Below, in pieces: positions 1,540-31,709 of a stretch of 64,000 nt of DNA. Position 1 is the stretch's first letter; every line of letters begins with the position of its first letter. Source of the stretch: Sutcliffiella horikoshii (GTDB taxonomy: Bacteria > Bacillota > Bacilli > Bacillales > Bacillaceae_I); contig NZ_CP082918.1 of NCBI RefSeq assembly GCF_019931755.1, positions 3,576,001 to 3,640,000 of the forward strand, read 5' to 3'. Below the pieces are notes generated by a model. It saw only the letters and a program-made list of their open reading frames with translations, was not told the DNA's origin and made no database searches. The translations under genes were made by a program, and so were the position numbers.

Positions 1540-2766
1540 CTACTGAGTAGTTTTTAAATAGATGTGTTTGTGTATTAAGCCCAAAAATAAACAGAAAATA
1601 GTAAAATAATAAAACCACCCCTGCATAATCGGCTCTAGTAAAAATGTTACAATCATCGCAGTAAAACAGGATATAACTAATCCTTTTAAAAATACTGGTA
1701 AATCACTTTTAAGGAATGTCCTTAATGAAATTAATCCCAATAGAGAAAAAATAACTAACAAGACGAAAGGTATCAATCCTGCATCGTATCCCACATCGAG
1801 CCAAAGATTGTGAGCATAGTTTAATGATAACTCTGTTTTCCTTCCGCCAGATGGATAGCTGAACATACCTTTAAAAGATTCGCCCCAGGCTGTAAAACGA
1901 GGATCATCAATAGCCGAGAAGTTTCTCATTCTATTTCCGATAGTAGTGCTGAACCATTTGTCTTTAACTCCAAATATGTTTCCAATGAATAACAGAAAAC
2001 CAAGAATAGAGAAAAAGAAAATAATAACCGTGCTCATTATTTTCCTCGGTGTTAATTTTGTCGTATAAAAAAACACCGCAATACACGAAGCGCCTAGTAT
2101 GAGAAGCCCAGTTCTATTCCCAAGACTCAGGGAAACATAGATAGATATAGCCGAAACCGCTAAGATAAGGAGTTTGGTTATTTTCATTTTCTTTATATTG
2201 TTGTCCCTGAGAAACAATAAAGGTGTTAAGGCAATTCCAAGTGATACATAGGTATTCATTCCAGTTGCAGAAAGGAAATTCTCGCCCCATAAACTCATTA
2301 CAGCACGTCCGCCGTATGTGGGGGAAGCATTTTCAAGACTTCCATATATCTGCGTTGTTCTAACTATGCTCAGTATCGCAAACAACATCGTACTAATTGC
2401 CACCGTAAAAATCAGACAATAACTTTTTTTGATGGGGTTTTTGTTGTTGATAAAAGCGTACCCCGTCCAATAAAAAACAATTGGCGCAATAAGGTAGCCA
2501 CCCAATACTAAGGTAACATCAGAAAACCCATACAATTTTACAGTTATAGCGTAATAAGCACTAAATAACATGAGTAGCGAACTCATAATTATTAATCGTT
2601 TAGTCATCTCCTTGAATATTATTTTCCAAAGAATAAAAGGTAGTAACAAGAAAGCAATTACTATTCCTTTATTTAAAAAGTTGGCTGCATACAGGCCGAC
2701 AATTATAATAAACAGTATTTCTGCATTTGATAATTTTGAGTTTTGGCCCATTTGTGTAGTTGTCAT
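1540..2766 (-). CDS. O-antigen ligase / polysaccharide polymerase family membrane protein in the prophage tail module
   Basis: A polytopic membrane protein of about 408 residues with ten or more hydrophobic segments. The GNRTG stretch and a periplasm-side-like loop with the AHNLWLDVGYDAG motif are typical of the Wzy/WaaL (Wzy_C) family, which polymerises or transfers lipid-linked glycans. The start is placed at ATG 2766 because AGGGGTG lies 6 nt upstream; a TTG at 2799 has no such site. In a Gram-positive host the likely substrate would be a surface polysaccharide or teichuronic-type polymer, not O-antigen. Location inside the late tail operon suggests a lysogenic conversion or receptor-altering gene; that role is inference. 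Confidence 0.75.
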   Translation of the reverse strand: MTTTQMGQNSKLSNAEILFIIIVGLYAANFLNKGIVIAFLLLPFILWKIIFKEMTKRLIIMSSLLMLFSAYYAITVKLYGFSDVTLVLGGYLIAPIVFYWTGYAFINNKNPIKKSYCLIFTVAISTMLFAILSIVRTTQIYGSLENASPTYGGRAVMSLWGENFLSATGMNTYVSLGIALTPLLFLRDNNIKKMKITKLLILAVSAISIYVSLSLGNRTGLLILGASCIAVFFYTTKLTPRKIMSTVIIFFFSILGFLLFIGNIFGVKDKWFSTTIGNRMRNFSAIDDPRFTAWGESFKGMFSYPSGGRKTELSLNYAHNLWLDVGYDAGLIPFVLLVIFSLLGLISLRTFLKSDLPVFLKGLVISCFTAMIVTFLLEPIMQGWFYYFTIFCLFLGLIHKHIYLKTTQ

Positions 2767-2812
2767 GTTATTCACCCCTTGAAAATAATACCATGACAAC
2801 TAATTTTTTTCA

Positions 2813-4498
2813 TTACTTATTGTTAAAATAAGTAACACTACCTCGGATTGAAGTAATACCTTGCAACTTGTGTGTGTACATATTCATATCCGTCGAATTT
2901 GGGTATTTTTGATTGCGTATAAATAATCTATTAGTTGCTCCATCCACCACCCCGTATAGATTCATTACAGAAGTAGAACTCCCATAATGTTCTATCGGAA
3001 AGGTGAAATACCCTTGTATAGGCTTAGTTGTTTCTGGTAATGTCACTACTAATAAACGAGTCGTAGGTAAAGCAGAAACGTCTCCAATATCTATCCGAAA
3101 AGTGTAATGAGTAAGCATTTCATCAGTGATATAATTACCAACTACATTTGTTGTTGGAACATCTCCTTCAACGGCAGTTGATCCAGAGTTAAGATACTGT
3201 AACTTAGATGAAAAAGATTTGCTTGTTAGACGATTTTTCTTTAATGATTTGACAACTCTTTTTAATTCCCAGTCCACTCCCCCTACAGAAGCATCACCCA
3301 TCAGGTTATAGTACAAAACCAAGTTCAGGTCTGTTGCCGTTTCTTCGAAAATAACTGCTGGTTTATATAAACCCCTCCCAGCTACAGCCCTCGTTAATAG
3401 ATTTTCAGATGATAAAGAAAACCCGAAACCATCAGACGACTTAAAGAGCATGATATTATTAAATTGCAAATCATCCGCAATCATAATCAAGCCTTCTGCG
3501 GATTGGTACATTTCAAAATGCCATAACGTCTTACTTGTACCCTGCACTTCGCATGTAGTTAAATTTGTCCACGTTTTTAGATCATCACTTTGAACCCTTT
3601 TCAATTTGTAGCCATCTGTTATATCAATGAAATACATAAAGTATCTACCGTTAAGATACACGACATCCGGTGACACAATTGCATTTGAAGATTGATAGAT
3701 AATTTCTTTTTCTGACCAAGTGCGCCCATCATCTGAACTTTGTAACCAGTAACGGTCACTAATCCCTGTACCGTTTTCACGATAGATCAAATGTAATGTA
3801 TAACCATTTTTATCTAATATCCAACAAGGGTCAGAATAGTGTCTTCCTTGTGCTGGATAAGGTTGCAGTGGATTAGTAACTCCGGGAGGATTTAGCCAAT
3901 TCTTTCCGTCATTTGATACATAAATACAAGGATTTTCATACGCTTCACTATTGTCCTTGTATGGAGTGATAGCCATCCAATAGTTATAACCGTTCCACTT
4001 TCTAGGGAAGTTAATAATCTGCGGATGTACGTATTCGGTATTTCCGTATGGTGATACTGGCATATTCACATTTGTAGCAGTATCAACGGAGTCTATTGCC
4101 ACACTTACGAGGTCTATGCTATTTCTCCCAATAAACCTTGTATTAATGGGATTGGAAATAACAGACTGCGTATTTTGTGCCAAGAGCGCGGTAACGTTTT
4201 GATTCTCTGTCCGCACTCTATGGTCAGGAGAGTCGTAAACTGTACCATCTGTACCAATCTTCAATTGTTCTACAGCTGGGTCAATGGTGGACGCGCCTAT
4301 CACTTGATCTACTTGCGTTTGTACATAATCTGCAGTTTCATTCGCTTGGTTTGCTACGTTCAGCGATTGTTCTGCCGTATTTTTTGCTGATTCCGAATCA
4401 ACTTTTGCTTTTTCTGCTGCATCGATTGCATCATTTATATATTCTACTCCCTTATAGATAGGAAATCCTACCCCAATCGGAATTTTTGGAAGAGGCAT
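2813..4498 (-). CDS. Phage receptor-binding / tail fibre protein with beta-propeller domain
   Basis: 561 residues behind a strong GGTGGTG site. Residues 20-75 are an Ala/Glu-rich heptad coiled coil (AEKAKVDSESAKNTAEQ), typical of trimeric fibre stalks. Residues about 150-430 show repeated blades such as YVSNDGKNW, SSDDGRTW and QSDDLKTW, the Asp-box pattern of sialidase or GH43/GH32-like five-bladed propellers that bind or cut glycans. The last 110 residues look like a small beta-rich tip domain. It follows Dit with a 13-bp gap. Whether it has enzyme activity cannot be told; catalytic residues were not assigned. Confidence 0.7.
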   Translation of the reverse strand: MPLPKIPIGVGFPIYKGVEYINDAIDAAEKAKVDSESAKNTAEQSLNVANQANETADYVQTQVDQVIGASTIDPAVEQLKIGTDGTVYDSPDHRVRTENQNVTALLAQNTQSVISNPINTRFIGRNSIDLVSVAIDSVDTATNVNMPVSPYGNTEYVHPQIINFPRKWNGYNYWMAITPYKDNSEAYENPCIYVSNDGKNWLNPPGVTNPLQPYPAQGRHYSDPCWILDKNGYTLHLIYRENGTGISDRYWLQSSDDGRTWSEKEIIYQSSNAIVSPDVVYLNGRYFMYFIDITDGYKLKRVQSDDLKTWTNLTTCEVQGTSKTLWHFEMYQSAEGLIMIADDLQFNNIMLFKSSDGFGFSLSSENLLTRAVAGRGLYKPAVIFEETATDLNLVLYYNLMGDASVGGVDWELKRVVKSLKKNRLTSKSFSSKLQYLNSGSTAVEGDVPTTNVVGNYITDEMLTHYTFRIDIGDVSALPTTRLLVVTLPETTKPIQGYFTFPIEHYGSSTSVMNLYGVVDGATNRLFIRNQKYPNSTDMNMYTHKLQGITSIRGSVTYFNNK

Positions 4499-25937: not shown

Positions 25938-26125
25938 GCGCTCCCCTCCTTCTCCACATATGGATATTTCTCATGAAAAAACTTGATTGGCACCTTTCCT
26001 CTTTCAATCCAGTAACCCCTGGATGACAATTCTTCATTTAGCGACTGGATCCGCAGTTGAGCAGTTCGGAGGGTGTTAAGTCCCAACATATCTTTAACCT
26101 CTTTCGACGTGTAGAAGTGTTTCAC
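25934..26125 (-). CDS. Small DNA-binding protein, excisionase/MerR-like helix-turn-helix
   Basis: 63 residues from GTG 26125, 7 nt after GGAGG; ATG 26143 would place the site inside the gene. HFYTSKEVKDMLGLNTLRTA looks like the winged HTH of excisionase and AlpA-type proteins. As an early gene next to cro it could direct excision or regulation; the exact role is inferred. Confidence 0.55.
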   Translation of the reverse strand: MKHFYTSKEVKDMLGLNTLRTAQLRIQSLNEELSSRGYWIERGKVPIKFFHEKYPYVEKEGSA

Positions 26126-26179
26126 CAAAGAGCCTCCTTTCATGAAATTTGTAATGTTGGTAAATGCTACTTTTGTACA

Positions 26180-26422
26180 TTAAATTATTTGGTTCTGCTT
26201 TTGTTCGACATGTACGACATCACTTGCAAAAAAAATATCACGTGGGTCTTTGTCAAAGAAATTTGCAATTCTTAACATTAATTCTGCAGTAGTATTTCCA
26301 CCGTTCTCAATCGATACAATTGTTTGTCTAGAAACATTCAAGGCTTCGGCTAACTGTTGTTGTGTAAGGTCAAACCCCTCGCTTTTTCTAAGGTATTTGA
26401 TTCTATTTTTCAAATTATTCAC
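26180..26422 (-). CDS. Cro-like helix-turn-helix repressor
   Basis: 80 residues. Classic HTH_3 fold: RIKYLRKSEGFDLTQQQLAE, then NVSRQTIVSIENG. First gene of the lytic transcript, divergent from the CI-like repressor, in the place of Cro. SD GAGAGGTGAATA. An operator-like sequence lies within its 3' end. Confidence 0.85.
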   Translation of the reverse strand: MNNLKNRIKYLRKSEGFDLTQQQLAEALNVSRQTIVSIENGGNTTAELMLRIANFFDKDPRDIFFASDVVHVEQKQNQII

Positions 26423-26432
26423 CTCTCAGTAT

Positions 26433-26485
26433 TGTCGTACATGTCTTACAATTACAAGTGTACGACATGTCTGAATTTTTGTCAA
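26433..26485 (-). promoter_or_regulatory. Lytic promoter overlapped by repressor operators
   Basis: On the minus strand TTGACA (26485-26480), 17-nt spacer and TACACT (26462-26457) form a strong promoter for cro. Operators TGTCGTACATGTC (26433) and TGTACGACATGTC (26460) overlap it; GTCGTACA and TGTACGAC are inverted repeats. A further GACATGT copy lies at 26208 in cro. Confidence 0.7.
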
Positions 26486-26525
26486 CTATGTTTTACGATT
26501 CTTTTTCGCATATTGCTTAATTAAT

Positions 26526-26553
26526 TGTAATCTTTGTTTTACAATATGTAGTA
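26526..26553 (+). promoter_or_regulatory. Probable repressor promoter
   Basis: TTGTAA near 26526 and TAGTAT about 18 nt downstream could drive the CI-like gene starting at 26580. The region holds related TTTTACAA repeats. Assignment is tentative. Confidence 0.4.
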
Positions 26554-26579
26554 TAGAGTTTACAAGGGGAATTCAAATT

Positions 26580-26957
26580 ATGAATGAACTAGGAAATTTA
26601 CTAAGAAATTTAAGGGGAAAAGAATCACTTAGATCCGTCGGTGAACGAACAGGCCTGAGTCATTCCTATATATCTGATATAGAAAATGGTTATAGAAGAG
26701 GAACAAAAAAACCTATTCATCCTTCTGCAGATACCCTACAACGTTTGGCTAAAGCTTATAAATATCCTGTTAATCGTTTACTTCAGGTAGCAGGATATAT
26801 GGAAATGGAAAACGAGGACCTTAAACCAGAATCCGAAAACGAATCCTTATTCTTTTTTGACAAGGAAGATATAACACCAGAGGAAATGGAAGAGCTGAAG
26901 AAGTATCTGGAGTTCATGAGGATGAAGGCAAAGCAGGAGAATGAGAAAAAAGATTAA
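26580..26957 (+). CDS. CI-like lysogeny repressor (ImmR type)
   Basis: 125 residues. HTH: LGNLLRNLRGKESLRSVGER, then GLSHSYISDIENGYRRG. A short acidic C-terminal part (EDITPEEMEELKKYLEF) replaces the LexA-like protease domain of lambda CI. Such repressors are cleaved by an ImmA partner, and one is encoded at 28.7 kb. Promoter is divergent from cro. Confidence 0.8.
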   Translation: MNELGNLLRNLRGKESLRSVGERTGLSHSYISDIENGYRRGTKKPIHPSADTLQRLAKAYKYPVNRLLQVAGYMEMENEDLKPESENESLFFFDKEDITPEEMEELKKYLEFMRMKAKQENEKKD

Positions 26958-27050
26958 GTAAGTAAAATATACAATATTGGCAAAGAAGAGAATCAAAACG
27001 AAGCGAGGCGCAGCCGAAGTGTGGAGTTAGGATTTTATTTTTTCCCTTTC

Positions 27051-27075
27051 ACTTCTCAATTTGAGAAGTTTTTCT
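27051..27075 (+). terminator. Terminator after the CI-like repressor
   Basis: ACTTCTCAA and TTGAGAAGT form a near perfect 9-bp stem followed by TTTTTCT. It separates the repressor from the three-gene cassette. The 120 bp upstream of it (26958-27050) show nothing recognisable. Confidence 0.7.
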
Positions 27076-27133
27076 CAAGAAACTTTATAGACTGTGGAAT
27101 TTAATAACAACAGGAACAAATTATACATAAATG

Positions 27134-27147
27134 CTATAAGACAACGG
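27134..27147 (+). promoter_or_regulatory. Extended -10 promoter for the three-gene cassette
   Basis: TGCTATAAG near 27134 is an extended -10 with no good -35. A leader of about 65 nt follows, with SD GGAGGAA before ATG 27212. ACTCC in the leader could pair with the GGAG of the SD. Confidence 0.35.
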
Positions 27148-27211
27148 AGAAAAGACACTCCTGTTTATTGGGTGCTATTTGTGAATTAAAAATGTCTCGG
27201 AGGAAATTATT

Positions 27212-27643
27212 ATGAAACCATATGTAACTACTTTTGCTTTTTCAGACGATGTCAAAGAAATGCCTAACCAGAATGGCGGAGCAACAATGCATGTAATAAA
27301 TCCGCAAAATCTATTTCGACCACATTTCGTACCAGGTACTTATTCATTCGCAGTTACATTTGGTTTTTTAGGTGTAGATCCAGAAAGGAAGCATAAACTT
27401 AGTTTTCAATTTTTATCACCTAATTCGGCCGAAAATGCCCTTATAGATATTAGAGATGCTTAACTTCCTCCGAATCTAACTTTAGATTCACGACTTCCTA
27501 AAGAAGCAAATGGATTTATATTTAATATGGATTTTAGGAACATCGCTTTCCGAGTAGAAGGTAAATATACTGCTAAGGTATCCTTAAACGGCGAGCCTCT
27601 TGGAGAATTTCCAGTACTTGTTTATCCCCAGGAAAAAATGTAA
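27212..27643 (+). pseudogene. DUF6941-like beta-sandwich protein, interrupted by an in-frame TAA
   Basis: The frame starts at ATG 27212 behind GGAGGAA and hits TAA at 27461 after 83 codons, then continues open in the same frame to TAA 27641. The second half (GFIFNMDFRNIAFRVEGKYT, LNGEPLGEFPVLVY) is protein-like and pairs with the first (PHFVPGTYSFAVTFGF) to give one 143-residue DUF6941-like fold. So either a point mutation such as CAA to TAA broke the gene, or the stop is read through. Family function is unknown. It heads a cassette with two membrane proteins between repressor and ImmA. Confidence 0.6.
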
Positions 27644-27645
27644 AT

Positions 27646-28341
27646 ATGGGCAGCCCTACGGTTATTATTGAAAATGGAATTGTGAAAATTATCTCTCCTC
27701 ATCGTTATGAAACTGAGGAAGGGGAATGTATTGAAAAAGAAAGTAATACTTACTATAAACGAGTACTCAATAAAGTAATAAGTAATCAAGTGGCAATAAT
27801 GGTGTTTACGACGTCAGCAATATTACAACATGGGATGCTAGATACAGATTCCGTTCATCATAACATGGTGAATAATAATTCCCAAGAGTCTCCTATAAGT
27901 TATAAAGAAGAGCGAATCCCTATCAAAAACATACAACAAAACAGTAAATTGATTGCTTATAATTTTGGTACTCCTTATTCTGAAAGTCATAATATCGTAA
28001 ATGAACAATTTTCAAGTGATATTTTGGCGAAAATTGCCGTAAATAGGCTTACGGACAGTGTTCTTTCCCCTCAAATTACTGATATAATAGATACTAGTCA
28101 TATTGAGGAGAAAGAGGGTGTGTTGTCCATGGTCAATACATTAGATGAGATAGATAAGAAAATCAGGAAGACTTATAATTATAGTGCTCTATTATTATCA
28201 GGCCTTGCTGCAACATCTTTTATTTCTGTTATAGGTTTAAATTTTCTCCCGTCACCCATTGATTCAACACTCTTAGTTGCAAGTACAGCTGGCGCTCTTG
28301 GTCTTTTTATTGATAAGATTAAGCGAGTAAAAGTTACTTGA
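27646..28341 (+). CDS. Unknown protein with two C-terminal membrane helices
   Basis: 231 residues. Residues 1-160 are soluble-looking and polar (IIENGIVKIISPHRYETEEG; many Asn, Ser, His). Residues about 178-222 hold two hydrophobic helices joined by NFLPSPIDST. No family recognised. It begins 2 bp after the DUF6941-like frame and overlaps the next gene (TTGA). Placement between repressor and ImmA is a usual site for superinfection-exclusion or anti-phage genes. Confidence 0.65.
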   Translation: MGSPTVIIENGIVKIISPHRYETEEGECIEKESNTYYKRVLNKVISNQVAIMVFTTSAILQHGMLDTDSVHHNMVNNNSQESPISYKEERIPIKNIQQNSKLIAYNFGTPYSESHNIVNEQFSSDILAKIAVNRLTDSVLSPQITDIIDTSHIEEKEGVLSMVNTLDEIDKKIRKTYNYSALLLSGLAATSFISVIGLNFLPSPIDSTLLVASTAGALGLFIDKIKRVKVT

Positions 28342-28634
28342 CAGTACCTAATGAATTCAACCTAACAGAAGTTCTTAGGAGTCTGCCAGCGTCCCTAATT
28401 TTCATATTGTTAGTTGATTGGTTCTTTATGAAAGATTTAGTACAGTTGTATACTTTCCAATTAGAAGCATCTGATCCTAATGGGAACTATACTTTTATAA
28501 CAATTATCGCCATCGTTTTTGTTAACCTTGTTATTATTTCTTCCTTTGCAAGAGTAAGGTATCTCCAGGAAAAACAATTGACTTTAGCGAAAAAGGTTAA
28601 GGAAAACAGTGAAAGTATTCCTAATGAATCCTAG
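28338..28634 (+). CDS. Unknown two-span membrane protein
   Basis: 98 residues from TTG 28338, coupled to the previous stop. Two predicted spans, about residues 15-35 (SLPASLIFILLVDWFF) and 50-70 (FITIIAIVFVNLVIISSF), then a charged tail. A terminator follows. No family recognised. Confidence 0.6.
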   Translation: MTVPNEFNLTEVLRSLPASLIFILLVDWFFMKDLVQLYTFQLEASDPNGNYTFITIIAIVFVNLVIISSFARVRYLQEKQLTLAKKVKENSESIPNES

Positions 28635-28661
28635 AGCCCACTTATTGGGCTCTTTCTTTTT
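28633..28661 (+). terminator. Terminator of the three-gene cassette
   Basis: AGAGCCCA and TGGGCTCT form a perfect 8-bp stem with loop CTTAT and a T-rich tail. It shows that the cassette is its own transcript. Confidence 0.85.
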
Positions 28662-28662
28662 G

Positions 28663-28691
28663 TTGTAAACACGAACACTTGTTTGTATAAT
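28663..28691 (+). promoter_or_regulatory. Promoter for the ImmA-integrase operon
   Basis: TTGTAA (28663), 17-nt spacer, TATAAT (28686). SD AAAGGAG precedes the GTG start at 28726. Confidence 0.75.
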
Positions 28692-28725
28692 TGTATTACA
28701 ATATACAAATAAAGGAGATTTACAA

Positions 28726-29205
28726 GTGAATAGCTACTCGCCGATGCCATTGGAAATAGCAATATCGAATTTATTTAAAAGGCTACAAATATTTAAGCCG
28801 GAGCAAATTTCAGAAAAGAAGATTGCACGAGACTTAAGAATATTCCTTACAACAAAGCCGATAAGATCCGTCTGCTACGAGAACGGACGGTTCCAATCCA
28901 TAAACATTGACCAACGATTACCAGTAGAAATGCAACGTGAACAATTTTATCATGAACTATGCCATCTACTACGGCATAGCGGTTGGCAGTTGGGAATCAT
29001 GCCGAGAGATTTTCATGATCTGCAGGAATGGGATGCAAGGAATTTTGTACGGTATGCTGCCATTCCTTATCACATGCTGCAGTTTATAGACATAGATGAT
29101 CCGTATGTCGTTGATAATATGGCTAGTGTGTTCAAAGTAACTCATGAACTATGCCAAGAAAGATTGGAACAACTTCAAAGGAGGGTACACTGTGCCGGTT
29201 TATAA
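28726..29205 (+). CDS. ImmA/IrrE-family metallopeptidase
   Basis: 159 residues, GTG start. HELCH in [11 protein letters not shown] is the HExxH zinc motif and [12 protein letters not shown] carries the third ligand region. In ICEBs1 and phi105-like elements ImmA cleaves the ImmR repressor to trigger induction; here the repressor at 26.58 kb is the likely target. The gene overlaps the integrase start by 14 nt. Confidence 0.88.
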
Positions 29206-30268
29206 AGATAAAGAAAGAGACACCTGGTACTACAAGACGAGATATAAAGATATGTACGGAAAAAGTAAGCAAAAATTAAAAAGAGGATTTAGAAAGAGAA
29301 GAGAGGCGGTTCTTGCCGAAGCTGATTTTTTGGCGAGCATACAAGATGCCTTTTCGGATAATGTTACGCTGGATGAAGTATTTGAGCATAACATCAGTTA
29401 CAAAAGCTATAAAGACAAAACGATTCGTAGACGCACCCACGAATACAACCGGCATATCAAGCCGAGGTTCGGCCATCTTAAATTAAAAGACATTACTACT
29501 CAACAAGTATTGGAATTCCAACGATATCTTTCAGATGAGTTAAAATCATTGGAAAGTGCAAGGACCATATTTGCCAATTTTAAAGTCCTAATTAATCATG
29601 CGAAGAAGTTCTTCAATTTGCGTCGGGATCCCACGCTCCAAGTTCCAGCAATGCCTCGTGGAAAAAAGAAAGTAGATTTTATTAAACGTGAAGAGTTTGA
29701 TGTTCGTGTTGAGGCTATTGATATGCACTACTACAAAGAAATGACAATCCTCATGTTTTATACTGGGCTTCGGATTGGAGAAGCAATGGCCATAAAGTGG
29801 GTGGACGTAAACTTAGATAATAGAGAAATTGACATTAATAAAGCCTGGAGTTTAAATGAAAAGAAAGAAGGATCTGTGAAAACAGCAGCTAGCGAAGCAG
29901 TTATCCCCATCCCTAGAGTGGTTGTGGATATGTTGACAACTATAAAAAAAGAATCCTCTGAAAAAATTTATGGATTCAATGAGAATTACTATGTGTTTGG
30001 CGGTATGAAACCATACCATTACAATCACTATCACAAAAAATATAAAGATGTTTTCCCAGATCTTCGGATCCATTCTCTCAGGCACAGTTTTGCAGCGTAT
30101 CTAATCAATAAAGGAGTGGATATCTACCTGGTGAAGGAGCTCATGCGTCATGAGAATATAAAAGAAACAGCCGACACTTACGGCCACTTATATGTGGAAC
30201 GTAAGCATTCGGCTATGAGTGTTTTTGATGAAATTTTAGAGGGAAATGGTATCATTCCAGTATCATAA
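29192..30268 (+). CDS. int: Phage integrase, tyrosine recombinase
   Basis: About 358 residues from GTG 29192, which follows AGGAGGG. N-terminal arm-binding fold ([18 protein letters not shown]), SAM-like core-binding domain, then the catalytic domain with Arg in [15 protein letters not shown] box, His in [10 protein letters not shown] and Tyr in TYGHLY. It would integrate the prophage. Its stop is 43 bp from the sufB stop, with the genes facing each other. Confidence 0.92.
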
Positions 30269-30330
30269 GATGATACCACCACTCAAAAACATTGTTATAT
30301 TAAGGTTTAAATTATCCTATAGAACCTTCC
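30269..30330. other. Probable prophage-chromosome junction (att) at the sufB 3' end
   Basis: Phage genes end at 30268 and the host sufB stop is at 30312. The left end of the prophage is outside the window, so the duplicated core cannot be identified here. GGTATCAT/ATGATACC (30248-30277) is an inverted repeat at the integrase end. Confidence 0.5.
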
Positions 30331-31709
30331 ATCTCAAACTTGATCAGACGGTTCATTTCTACTGCGTATTCCATTGGTAGTTCTTTTGTGAATGGCTCGA
30401 TGAAGCCCATTACGATCATTTCTGTTGCTTCTTCTTCAGAAAGGCCACGGCTCATTAGATAGAACAGTTGCTCTTCGGATACTTTGGATACCTTCGCTTC
30501 GTGCTCAAGAGAAACATTGTCGTTAAACACTTCGTTATAAGGGATCGTATCAGAAGTAGACTGGTTATCCATGATTAGCGTGTCACACTCGATGTTAGAG
30601 CGTGCGCCGGAAGCTTTTTTACCAAAGTGTACGATTCCACGGTATGTTACTTTACCACCTTGCTTGGAGATGGATTTAGAAACGATTGTGGAAGACGTGT
30701 TTGGTGCAAGGTGGATCATTTTCGCACCTGCATCTTGGTGTTGGCCTTTACCAGCTAATGCGATGGAAAGAGTCATACCACGAGCGCCTTCACCTTTAAG
30801 GATAACCGCTGGGTATTTCATCGTTAATTTGGAACCGATGTTACCATCAATCCATTCCATTGTTGCATTAGCTTCACACACTGCACGCTTCGTAACTAGG
30901 TTGTATACATTGTTCGCCCAGTTTTGAATCGTCGTGTAACGGCAGTAAGCATCTTTCTTGATGATGATTTCTACTACCGCACTGTGAAGGGAGTTTGTTG
31001 TGTAAACAGGTGCTGTACAGCCTTCTACATAGTGTACGTGTGCGCCTTCGTCTACGATGATAAGCGTACGCTCGAATTGACCCATGTTCTCAGAGTTGAT
31101 TCGGAAGTATGCTTGTAGTGGAGTTTCCACTTTCACACCTTTTGGTACATAGATGAAAGATCCACCAGACCATACTGCAGAGTTCAGTGCAGAGAACTTA
31201 TTGTCTGTCGGCGGGATTACCTTCGCGAAGTGCTCACGGAAGATGTCTTCATTTTCTTTTAACGCGGTGTCTGTGTCTTTAAACACTACACCAAGATCTT
31301 CTAAGTCTTCTTGCATGTTGTGGTATACAACCTCAGATTCATACTGAGCAGATACACCTGCAAGATACTTTTGTTCTGCTTCAGGGATACCTAATTTGTC
31401 AAACGTCTGCTTGATCTCTTCAGGTACTTCATCCCAAGAACGCTCAGACTTCTCAGACGGTTTTACGTAATACGTAATTTCATCAAAGTTCAAGCTGTTC
31501 AAATCGCCGCCCCATTGTGGCATTGGCATGTTATAGAAATGTTCTAATGATTTAAGACGGAAATCCAACATCCATTGAGGCTCTTCCTTCATACGAGAGA
31601 TTTCTTCAACGATCTCTTTCGTAAGACCACGGCCGGAACGGAAAATGGAAACGTCTTTGTCCTTAAAACCATACTTGTAATCGCCGATTTCAGGCATTTT
31701 TTTCGCCAT
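30312..31709 (-). CDS. sufB: Fe-S cluster scaffold protein SufB
   Basis: 465 residues from ATG 31709 (GGAGG 7 nt upstream). Large conserved beta-helix with [39 protein letters not shown] and [15 protein letters not shown]. Forms the SufBCD complex that builds Fe-S clusters using sulfur from SufS and SufU. Last gene of sufCDSUB. Its 3' end borders a prophage. Confidence 0.95.

Follow-up and report, generated by a model that had tools for sequence, protein, structure and literature searches.

We analyzed a 64,000-nt stretch of the Sutcliffiella horikoshii genome (contig NZ_CP082918.1, positions 3,576,001 to 3,640,000; hereafter the window), in which a prophage of ~38 kb carries a cassette of three genes between those of a CI-like repressor and an ImmA-like metallopeptidase. 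The cassette lies on the plus strand, as do the lysogeny genes for repressor, ImmA, and integrase, and comprises the following elements:

27199–27203, plus strand: Shine-Dalgarno-like GGAGG, 8 bases ahead of the gene 1 ATG, read from the sequence
27212–27463, plus strand: gene 1, first piece, 83 codons, DUF6941/phrog_5881 (phrog_5881 E-value (E) 1.9e-8), ending in a premature TAA at 27461–27463
27464–27643, plus strand: gene 1, remainder, 59 codons of the same domain and the distal stop at 27641–27643 (phrog_5881 E 3e-6; PF22091 19.1 bits, cut-off 27)
27646–28341, plus strand: gene 2, 231 amino acids (aa), weak N-terminal hydrophobic segment at residues 44–60 and predicted C-terminal membrane hairpin at 180–198 and 204–222 (open reading frame, hydropathy)
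28338–28634, plus strand: gene 3, 98 aa, TTG start, predicted spans at residues 12–30 and 53–71 (open reading frame, hydropathy)
28633–28653, plus strand: intrinsic terminator of the cassette, perfect 8-bp stem with five G-C pairs, loop of 5, T-run

The positions of the three genes agree with those of the original prediction, and so does their coupling, with a 2-bp gap between the distal stop of gene 1 and the gene 2 ATG (27646) and a TTGA overlap of the gene 2 stop and gene 3 start at 28338–28341. The frames of genes 2 and 3 are open. Simple arithmetic from base composition (34% G+C) gives a 231-codon open frame a chance of ~2e-8, and this improbability, together with the recurrence of the same trio elsewhere, argues that the gene set is more than a chance arrangement. 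Gene 1, in contrast, is not the single open frame it had been taken for, as the in-frame TAA at 27461–27463 had been overlooked. A whole-genome profile search matched the DUF6941 of the window at E 1.4e-16, and three whole-genome searches also reported one TAA inside this match. The break falls in a variable-length loop between strands of the modeled domain, and the remainder is identical at 42 of 59 residues to the DUF6941 protein of a related locus (L051); on both grounds the interruption looks recent. Since the earliest in-frame start-like codon past the TAA, an ATG at codon 22 of the remainder (27527), already lies within the conserved part, the remainder is unlikely to be made whole on its own, and the interruption of gene 1 probably leaves this copy of the cassette impaired.

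DUF6941 was followed through overlapping sets of genomes, where it was present in 4 of the 199 genomes from relatives, 18 of the 398 from the class, 10 of the 295 from one other family, 7 of the 397 from the order, and 4 of the 398 from the phylum (the counts for relatives, class, and order include the own genome of the window). The same route supplied 28 further proteins, 5 named genome contigs, and 7 viral contigs, along with 6 records from 4 phages, 2 from Leuconostoc phage phiMH1, and 5 plasmids, 2 of which were viewed; 5 viral contigs were reached by gene 2, and 2 of these were new. Altogether 56 distinct loci were examined, and sorted into classes whose names we coined for this analysis, with motifs and coiled coils recognized by eye. 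The trio (class A) consists of DUF6941, a 200–231-aa protein with a C-terminal membrane hairpin, and a 92–128-aa two-span protein, and was found at 9 of the 56 loci (the window, L028, L031, L048, L049, L050, L051, L062, and L087; L051, L062, and L087 by reading). The three genes are thus found together beyond the window, although one of them is interrupted in two of the nine trios (gene 1 in the window, gene 2 in L062). L061 retains a single remnant, with pieces of genes 2 and 3 but no DUF6941, and L066 is the one trio-like case, with a 343-aa partner. Trio carriers are phages with different terminase families, and the cassette takes different sites in them; it stands beside lysis genes in L028, L031, L051, and L087 and ahead of terminase genes in L048, L049, and L062, and L031 and L051 have it on the strand that does not carry the hydrolase gene. 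Between the window and L051, DUF6941 is well kept (63% over both gene 1 pieces), whereas the membrane partners reach 22% and 14%, which is near noise. The trio is thereby shown to be a mobile, recurring prophage cassette of one conserved soluble domain and two membrane proteins that diverge fast or are replaced.

As a control, we applied a strict signature (190–245 aa with exactly two C-terminal spans, then 90–135 aa with two spans) to 238 adjacent same-strand gene pairs from 52 sources totaling 480,824 bases. It appeared eight times, that is, at six distinct loci plus two duplicate records, and always directly after a DUF6941 gene. L051, with a weak last span, and L062, with its interrupted gene 2, missed the signature, and L087 was found later. 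All sources except the window had been chosen because they carry DUF6941 or its partners, so the control speaks for rarity of the signature outside such operons within the sequences sampled, and not across all genomes.

Other DUF6941 operons carry other partners downstream of the common gene, so the family looks modular. The remaining loci fall into these groups:

Class B, seven loci (L022, L024, L047, L068, L070, L092, L093): partner with N-terminal hydrophobic segment and a 'TQACDL'-type protein
Class C, five loci (L041–L045): 'WNGxGG' partner and a 'YHAEIW' protein
Class D, 13 loci (L023, L025, L026, L037, L054, L055, L057, L063, L064, L069, L071, L075, L089): coiled-coil partner
Class E, three loci (L027, L056, L065; L027 and L056 profile-tested): partner and a phrog_5176-type protein
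One locus (L094): DUF6941, then an AAA_21 ATPase
Two loci (L046, L052): cut by a contig end
Fourteen of the 56 loci, of other kinds and set aside (L029, L030, L033; L032, L034, L035, L036, L038, L039, L040; L072–L074; L091): secreted, solitary, in other operons, or chance match

Operons mostly of these non-trio kinds reside in phages or phage-like plasmids of Aeribacillus, Lactococcus, Leuconostoc, Enterococcus, Staphylococcus, and Bacillus, and L055, L057, L063, L066, and L092 likewise adjoin lysis genes. A hydrophobic helix near the C-terminus occurs in 12 of the 13 class D partners (not in L063). Of 24 partners tested from classes A, A-like, B, C, and E plus L055 and L063, 22 have an N-terminal hydrophobic segment (17-residue mean hydropathy of at least 1.2; L043, L062, and L065 outside the test), the exceptions being L045 and L027, and none of the 11 other class D partners tested has one; taken singly the segment is weak, being reached by 4 to 134 of 500 shuffles, with gene 2 of the window among the weaker cases (70 of 500). 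The 'TQACDL'-like core (variants TQGC, SQSCD, and SQACD) marks proteins of ~180–200 aa after DUF6941 (L047:5957-6562, L068:2432-3001, L070:2382-2945, L092:2604-3155, L093:2604-3194), and those of L047, L068, and L070 belong to no NCBIfam family above cut-off. Small helical phrog_5176-type proteins close the class E operons (L056:4801-5172, L027:6717-7136, L065:3750-4121). By a motif, these third genes resemble HEPN proteins and are suspected to be of that type: against PF05168 the L027 protein scored below cut-off (E 0.088) and that of L056 gave nothing, while both share phrog_5176; PF05168 also lacks a match in the window's own genome, which has no bearing on the class E relatives. In the single ATPase example (L094:350-2238), the DUF6941 gene precedes that of a 451-aa protein of the AAA_21 family (PF13304, E 1.5e-25), a family common in defense systems. 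Seven of the loci set aside (L032, L034, L035, L036, L038, L039, and L040) encode secreted-looking chromosomal proteins that end in a DUF6941-like domain, probably a separate branch; in L035 a copper-amine-oxidase N-terminal domain (E 5.5e-11) precedes it.

DUF6941 (PF22091) is a family without assigned function, and neither Pfam nor PHROGs names its membrane partners; in the limited set of papers searched, DUF6941, PF22091, and phrog_5881 go unmentioned. The DUF6941-like beta-sandwich originally proposed for gene 1 holds insofar as both pieces match phrog_5881, but the interrupted window copy is not an intact all-beta domain. Against the PF22091 cut-off of 27 bits, the first window piece had no score and the remainder and L051 reached 19.1 and 19.6, whereas the intact trio relatives L028 and L049 exceeded it (31.3 and 30.1). 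The intact L051 protein is predicted to fold as an all-beta sandwich (predicted local distance difference test score 90.3, predicted template modeling score 0.83). Its fold matches in the PDB (the Wzt carbohydrate-binding domain, the AlkC immunoglobulin (Ig)-like domain, complement/TEP macroglobulin domains, and UNC119/RhoGDI) were set aside as a functional clue, because the sandwich is a generic Ig/C2-like one; viral structure matches include a protein of Anoxybacillus phage A403 (template modeling score 0.78 on the query). A sequence profile search of the PDB with DUF6941 yielded one weak pilin match only (E 0.00061), searches of phages with the first gene 1 piece or L049 DUF6941 returned self or nothing, and a search of viral contigs with L051 DUF6941 retrieved only itself.

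Hydropathy supports the two C-terminal membrane helices described for gene 2 and the two spans of gene 3, and neither protein matches a holin, toxin, or transporter family in Pfam, NCBIfam, or PHROGs. Pfam and NCBIfam gave nothing above cut-off, and PHROGs only weak, unrelated matches (E 0.19 and 0.012). The weak profile matches ThrE (E 0.087) and BPD_transp_1 (E 0.0049) were rejected as below cut-off, the L049 and L051 counterparts matching other families equally weakly. None of the PADLOC-DB 2023 families matched the four window pieces at E up to 1, and the proteins of the relatives drew weak matches only (E 0.00057 or worse). In a search of 5.8 billion proteins, which requires shared 5-residue words, window genes 2 and 3 each retrieved only themselves, and sequence searches of phages with both genes, and of plasmids, 199 genomes, and viral contigs with gene 2, likewise returned self or nothing; the AlphaFold model of gene 2 was unusable.

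Expression signals and the surrounding prophage are laid out as follows:

26580–26957, plus strand: CI-like HTH repressor (HTH_3 E 6.5e-9; phrog_8 E 1.6e-11)
27051–27069, plus strand: terminator-like hairpin after the repressor gene, eight pairs, three of them G-C, T-run
28726–29205, plus strand: ImmA-like metallopeptidase (Peptidase_M78 E 4.3e-10)
29144–30268, plus strand: tyrosine integrase, open reading frame (Phage_integrase E 1.6e-20 on 29192–30265)
30312–30335, no strand assigned: right attachment-like repeat at the 3' end of sufB (gene named by eye), by repeat match

The hairpin after the repressor and the perfect terminator of the cassette were both recovered as originally described, as was, in the sense of a sequence likeness, the promoter-like stretch ahead of ImmA (28663–28691). 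The extended promoter that the cassette had been credited with found no such support: upstream of gene 1 there is only TGCTATAAG, where a promoter scan yields nothing plausible, its sole entry (27186–27213) overlapping the start codon, and the 17 promoter-like matches in the region equal the chance expectation (15.9 ± 4.0). Terminator-like sites were only slightly above chance (5 versus 2.9 ± 1.7). An RNA element in the cassette region was rejected, as Rfam gave no match at E up to 1 over 26000–30400.

On the minus strand of the window, the prophage encodes the terminase large subunit, portal, DnaB, and a Bro-N/ANT antirepressor. A second small regulator, by eye of XRE type (26180–26422, minus strand) and divergent from the CI-like repressor, is probably its Cro-like partner. 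The right repeat has a partner 37.9 kb leftward (G000:C1:3568422-3568445; 92% of 24 bases alike), and from sequence the pair looks like an attachment repeat, which would mean that the prophage sits at the 3' end of the house-keeping Fe-S gene sufB. About 7.6 kb of the prophage extends left beyond the window start. This left arm holds, on the opposite strand and 30.7 kb from the cassette, the prophage's own amidase-LysM endolysin (L084:5115-6002, Amidase_3 E 1.2e-45); a UPF0489 protein between endolysin and left attachment-like repeat (L084:4406-5071, E 5.8e-10), likely another accessory gene; and, ~1.3–2.6 kb left of the window start, a group II intron reverse transcriptase/maturase (L084:6922-8196; RVT_1 8.7e-46, GIIM 4.8e-16). 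Within the window, an O-antigen-ligase-like membrane protein of the prophage (1540–2799, minus strand; Wzy_C E 2.5e-6, 27.8 bits, below the cut-off of 31.7) lies beside a BNR-like protein (2813–4498, minus strand; E 3.2e-5, below cut-off), and the Wzy_C-like gene is possibly a surface-modifying accessory gene.

We place about half of our confidence in the view that the cassette is an accessory, lysogen-expressed membrane system for superinfection exclusion or abortive infection. That it shares its strand with repressor, ImmA, and integrase, and that relatives occupy other accessory sites, fits the earlier idea of a moron in the lysogeny module. Gene 1 would normally make a soluble beta-sandwich (Ig/C2-like) DUF6941 protein, gene 2 a membrane protein whose weak N-terminal hydrophobic segment is followed by a long, variable central part and then by the C-terminal membrane hairpin, and gene 3 a small two-span membrane protein. 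Position and strand suggest expression in the lysogen, where the three proteins, as their coupling and co-occurrence lead us to propose, would form one membrane complex, with DUF6941 as the sensing or assembling subunit and the products of genes 2 and 3 as the membrane-acting part. Such a complex might block or abort infection by other phages through a perturbed membrane or DNA entry site, an action to which carriage, mobility, partner divergence, and a parallel with membrane-acting proteins of prophages, PdpSau among them, all point.

The membrane proteins could instead serve lysogenic conversion of the cell envelope, altering surface, transport, or stress properties of the host apart from phage exclusion. 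Their predicted location would suit this role, the other-class operons L027 and L041–L044 stand beside genes that by eye do not read as phage genes, and the DUF6941 fold, though a generic sandwich, is common to carbohydrate-binding domains such as that of Wzt. However, fast partner divergence and carriage by phages or phage-like plasmids are more typical of conflict genes, and we deem envelope conversion unlikely. A toxin-antitoxin or addiction module, in which DUF6941 restrains toxic membrane proteins, would account for soluble and membrane partners in one tight operon and for varied partner types downstream of one common protein. Yet in the window genes 2 and 3 are open while the supposed antitoxin gene is interrupted, an arrangement that speaks against an essential antitoxin role for DUF6941, and the L061 remnant has lost it altogether, making this explanation quite improbable. 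We see little chance that these are lysis-associated accessory proteins, whether holin modulators or anti-holins: the frequent lysis-gene neighborhood and the holin-like size of the two-span proteins would favor it, but an amidase of the prophage itself is encoded near the left end, the trio positions vary from the lysogeny module here to terminase-proximal sites and the strand opposite the hydrolase, and no holin profile matched. That the cassette is decaying and no longer functions in this genome is a slender possibility, as the broken gene 1 has parallels in other decaying copies (L062, L061), but no damage is apparent in genes 2 and 3, the terminator, or the rest of gene 1, and decay would concern the copy rather than the system and be compatible with phage exclusion.

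Beyond the exclusion role favored above, we advance tentatively, and with more doubt than belief, that DUF6941 of the phrog_5881 type serves as the shared sensor in an undescribed family of modular phage-conflict systems carried by Gram-positive prophages. Its interchangeable partners would be the two-gene membrane effector, coiled-coil tail-anchored proteins, 'TQACDL', 'WNGxGG', and phrog_5176 helical proteins, and once an AAA_21 ATPase, the window holding a membrane-effector version whose sensor was lately broken. If so, DUF6941 would acquire a function as the invariant component of a system that prophages carry and whose effectors, membrane proteins or others, can be exchanged. This would offer a way into the question of why lysogens are resistant to other phages, and defense catalogs may miss the family since its effectors diverge beyond sequence recognition.

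Among known systems, the superinfection exclusion proteins Sie2009 and SieA of P22 are prophage-encoded, lysogen-expressed, membrane-located single proteins. The cassette shares with them prophage carriage (prophage genes, integrase, attachment-like repeats) and, by hydropathy, a predicted membrane location; unlike the cassette, they have to our knowledge no soluble DUF6941 subunit, and the likeness is one of description. RexAB of phage lambda pairs a soluble with a membrane partner, adjoins the repressor gene, and acts on superinfection at the membrane; its proteins differ from those of the cassette, and the likeness lies in working mode. PdpSau, an abortive-infection membrane protein of Staphylococcus aureus prophages, aborts other phages with loss of membrane polarity and consists of one 278-aa chain in which an N-terminal helix is combined with a cytoplasmic oligonucleotide/oligosaccharide-binding-like domain, the consulted sections of its report mentioning no DUF6941 partner (PMC10127798). 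It resembles the cassette, again by description, in being a membrane protein encoded by a prophage accessory gene that adjoins lysis genes, as several trio relatives do (PMC10127798). The PdpSau-type site described in those sections, directly downstream of the lysis-module amidase, is not that of the window, where the cassette sits between repressor and ImmA with the amidase 30.7 kb off, but it is the very site taken by the trio in L028.
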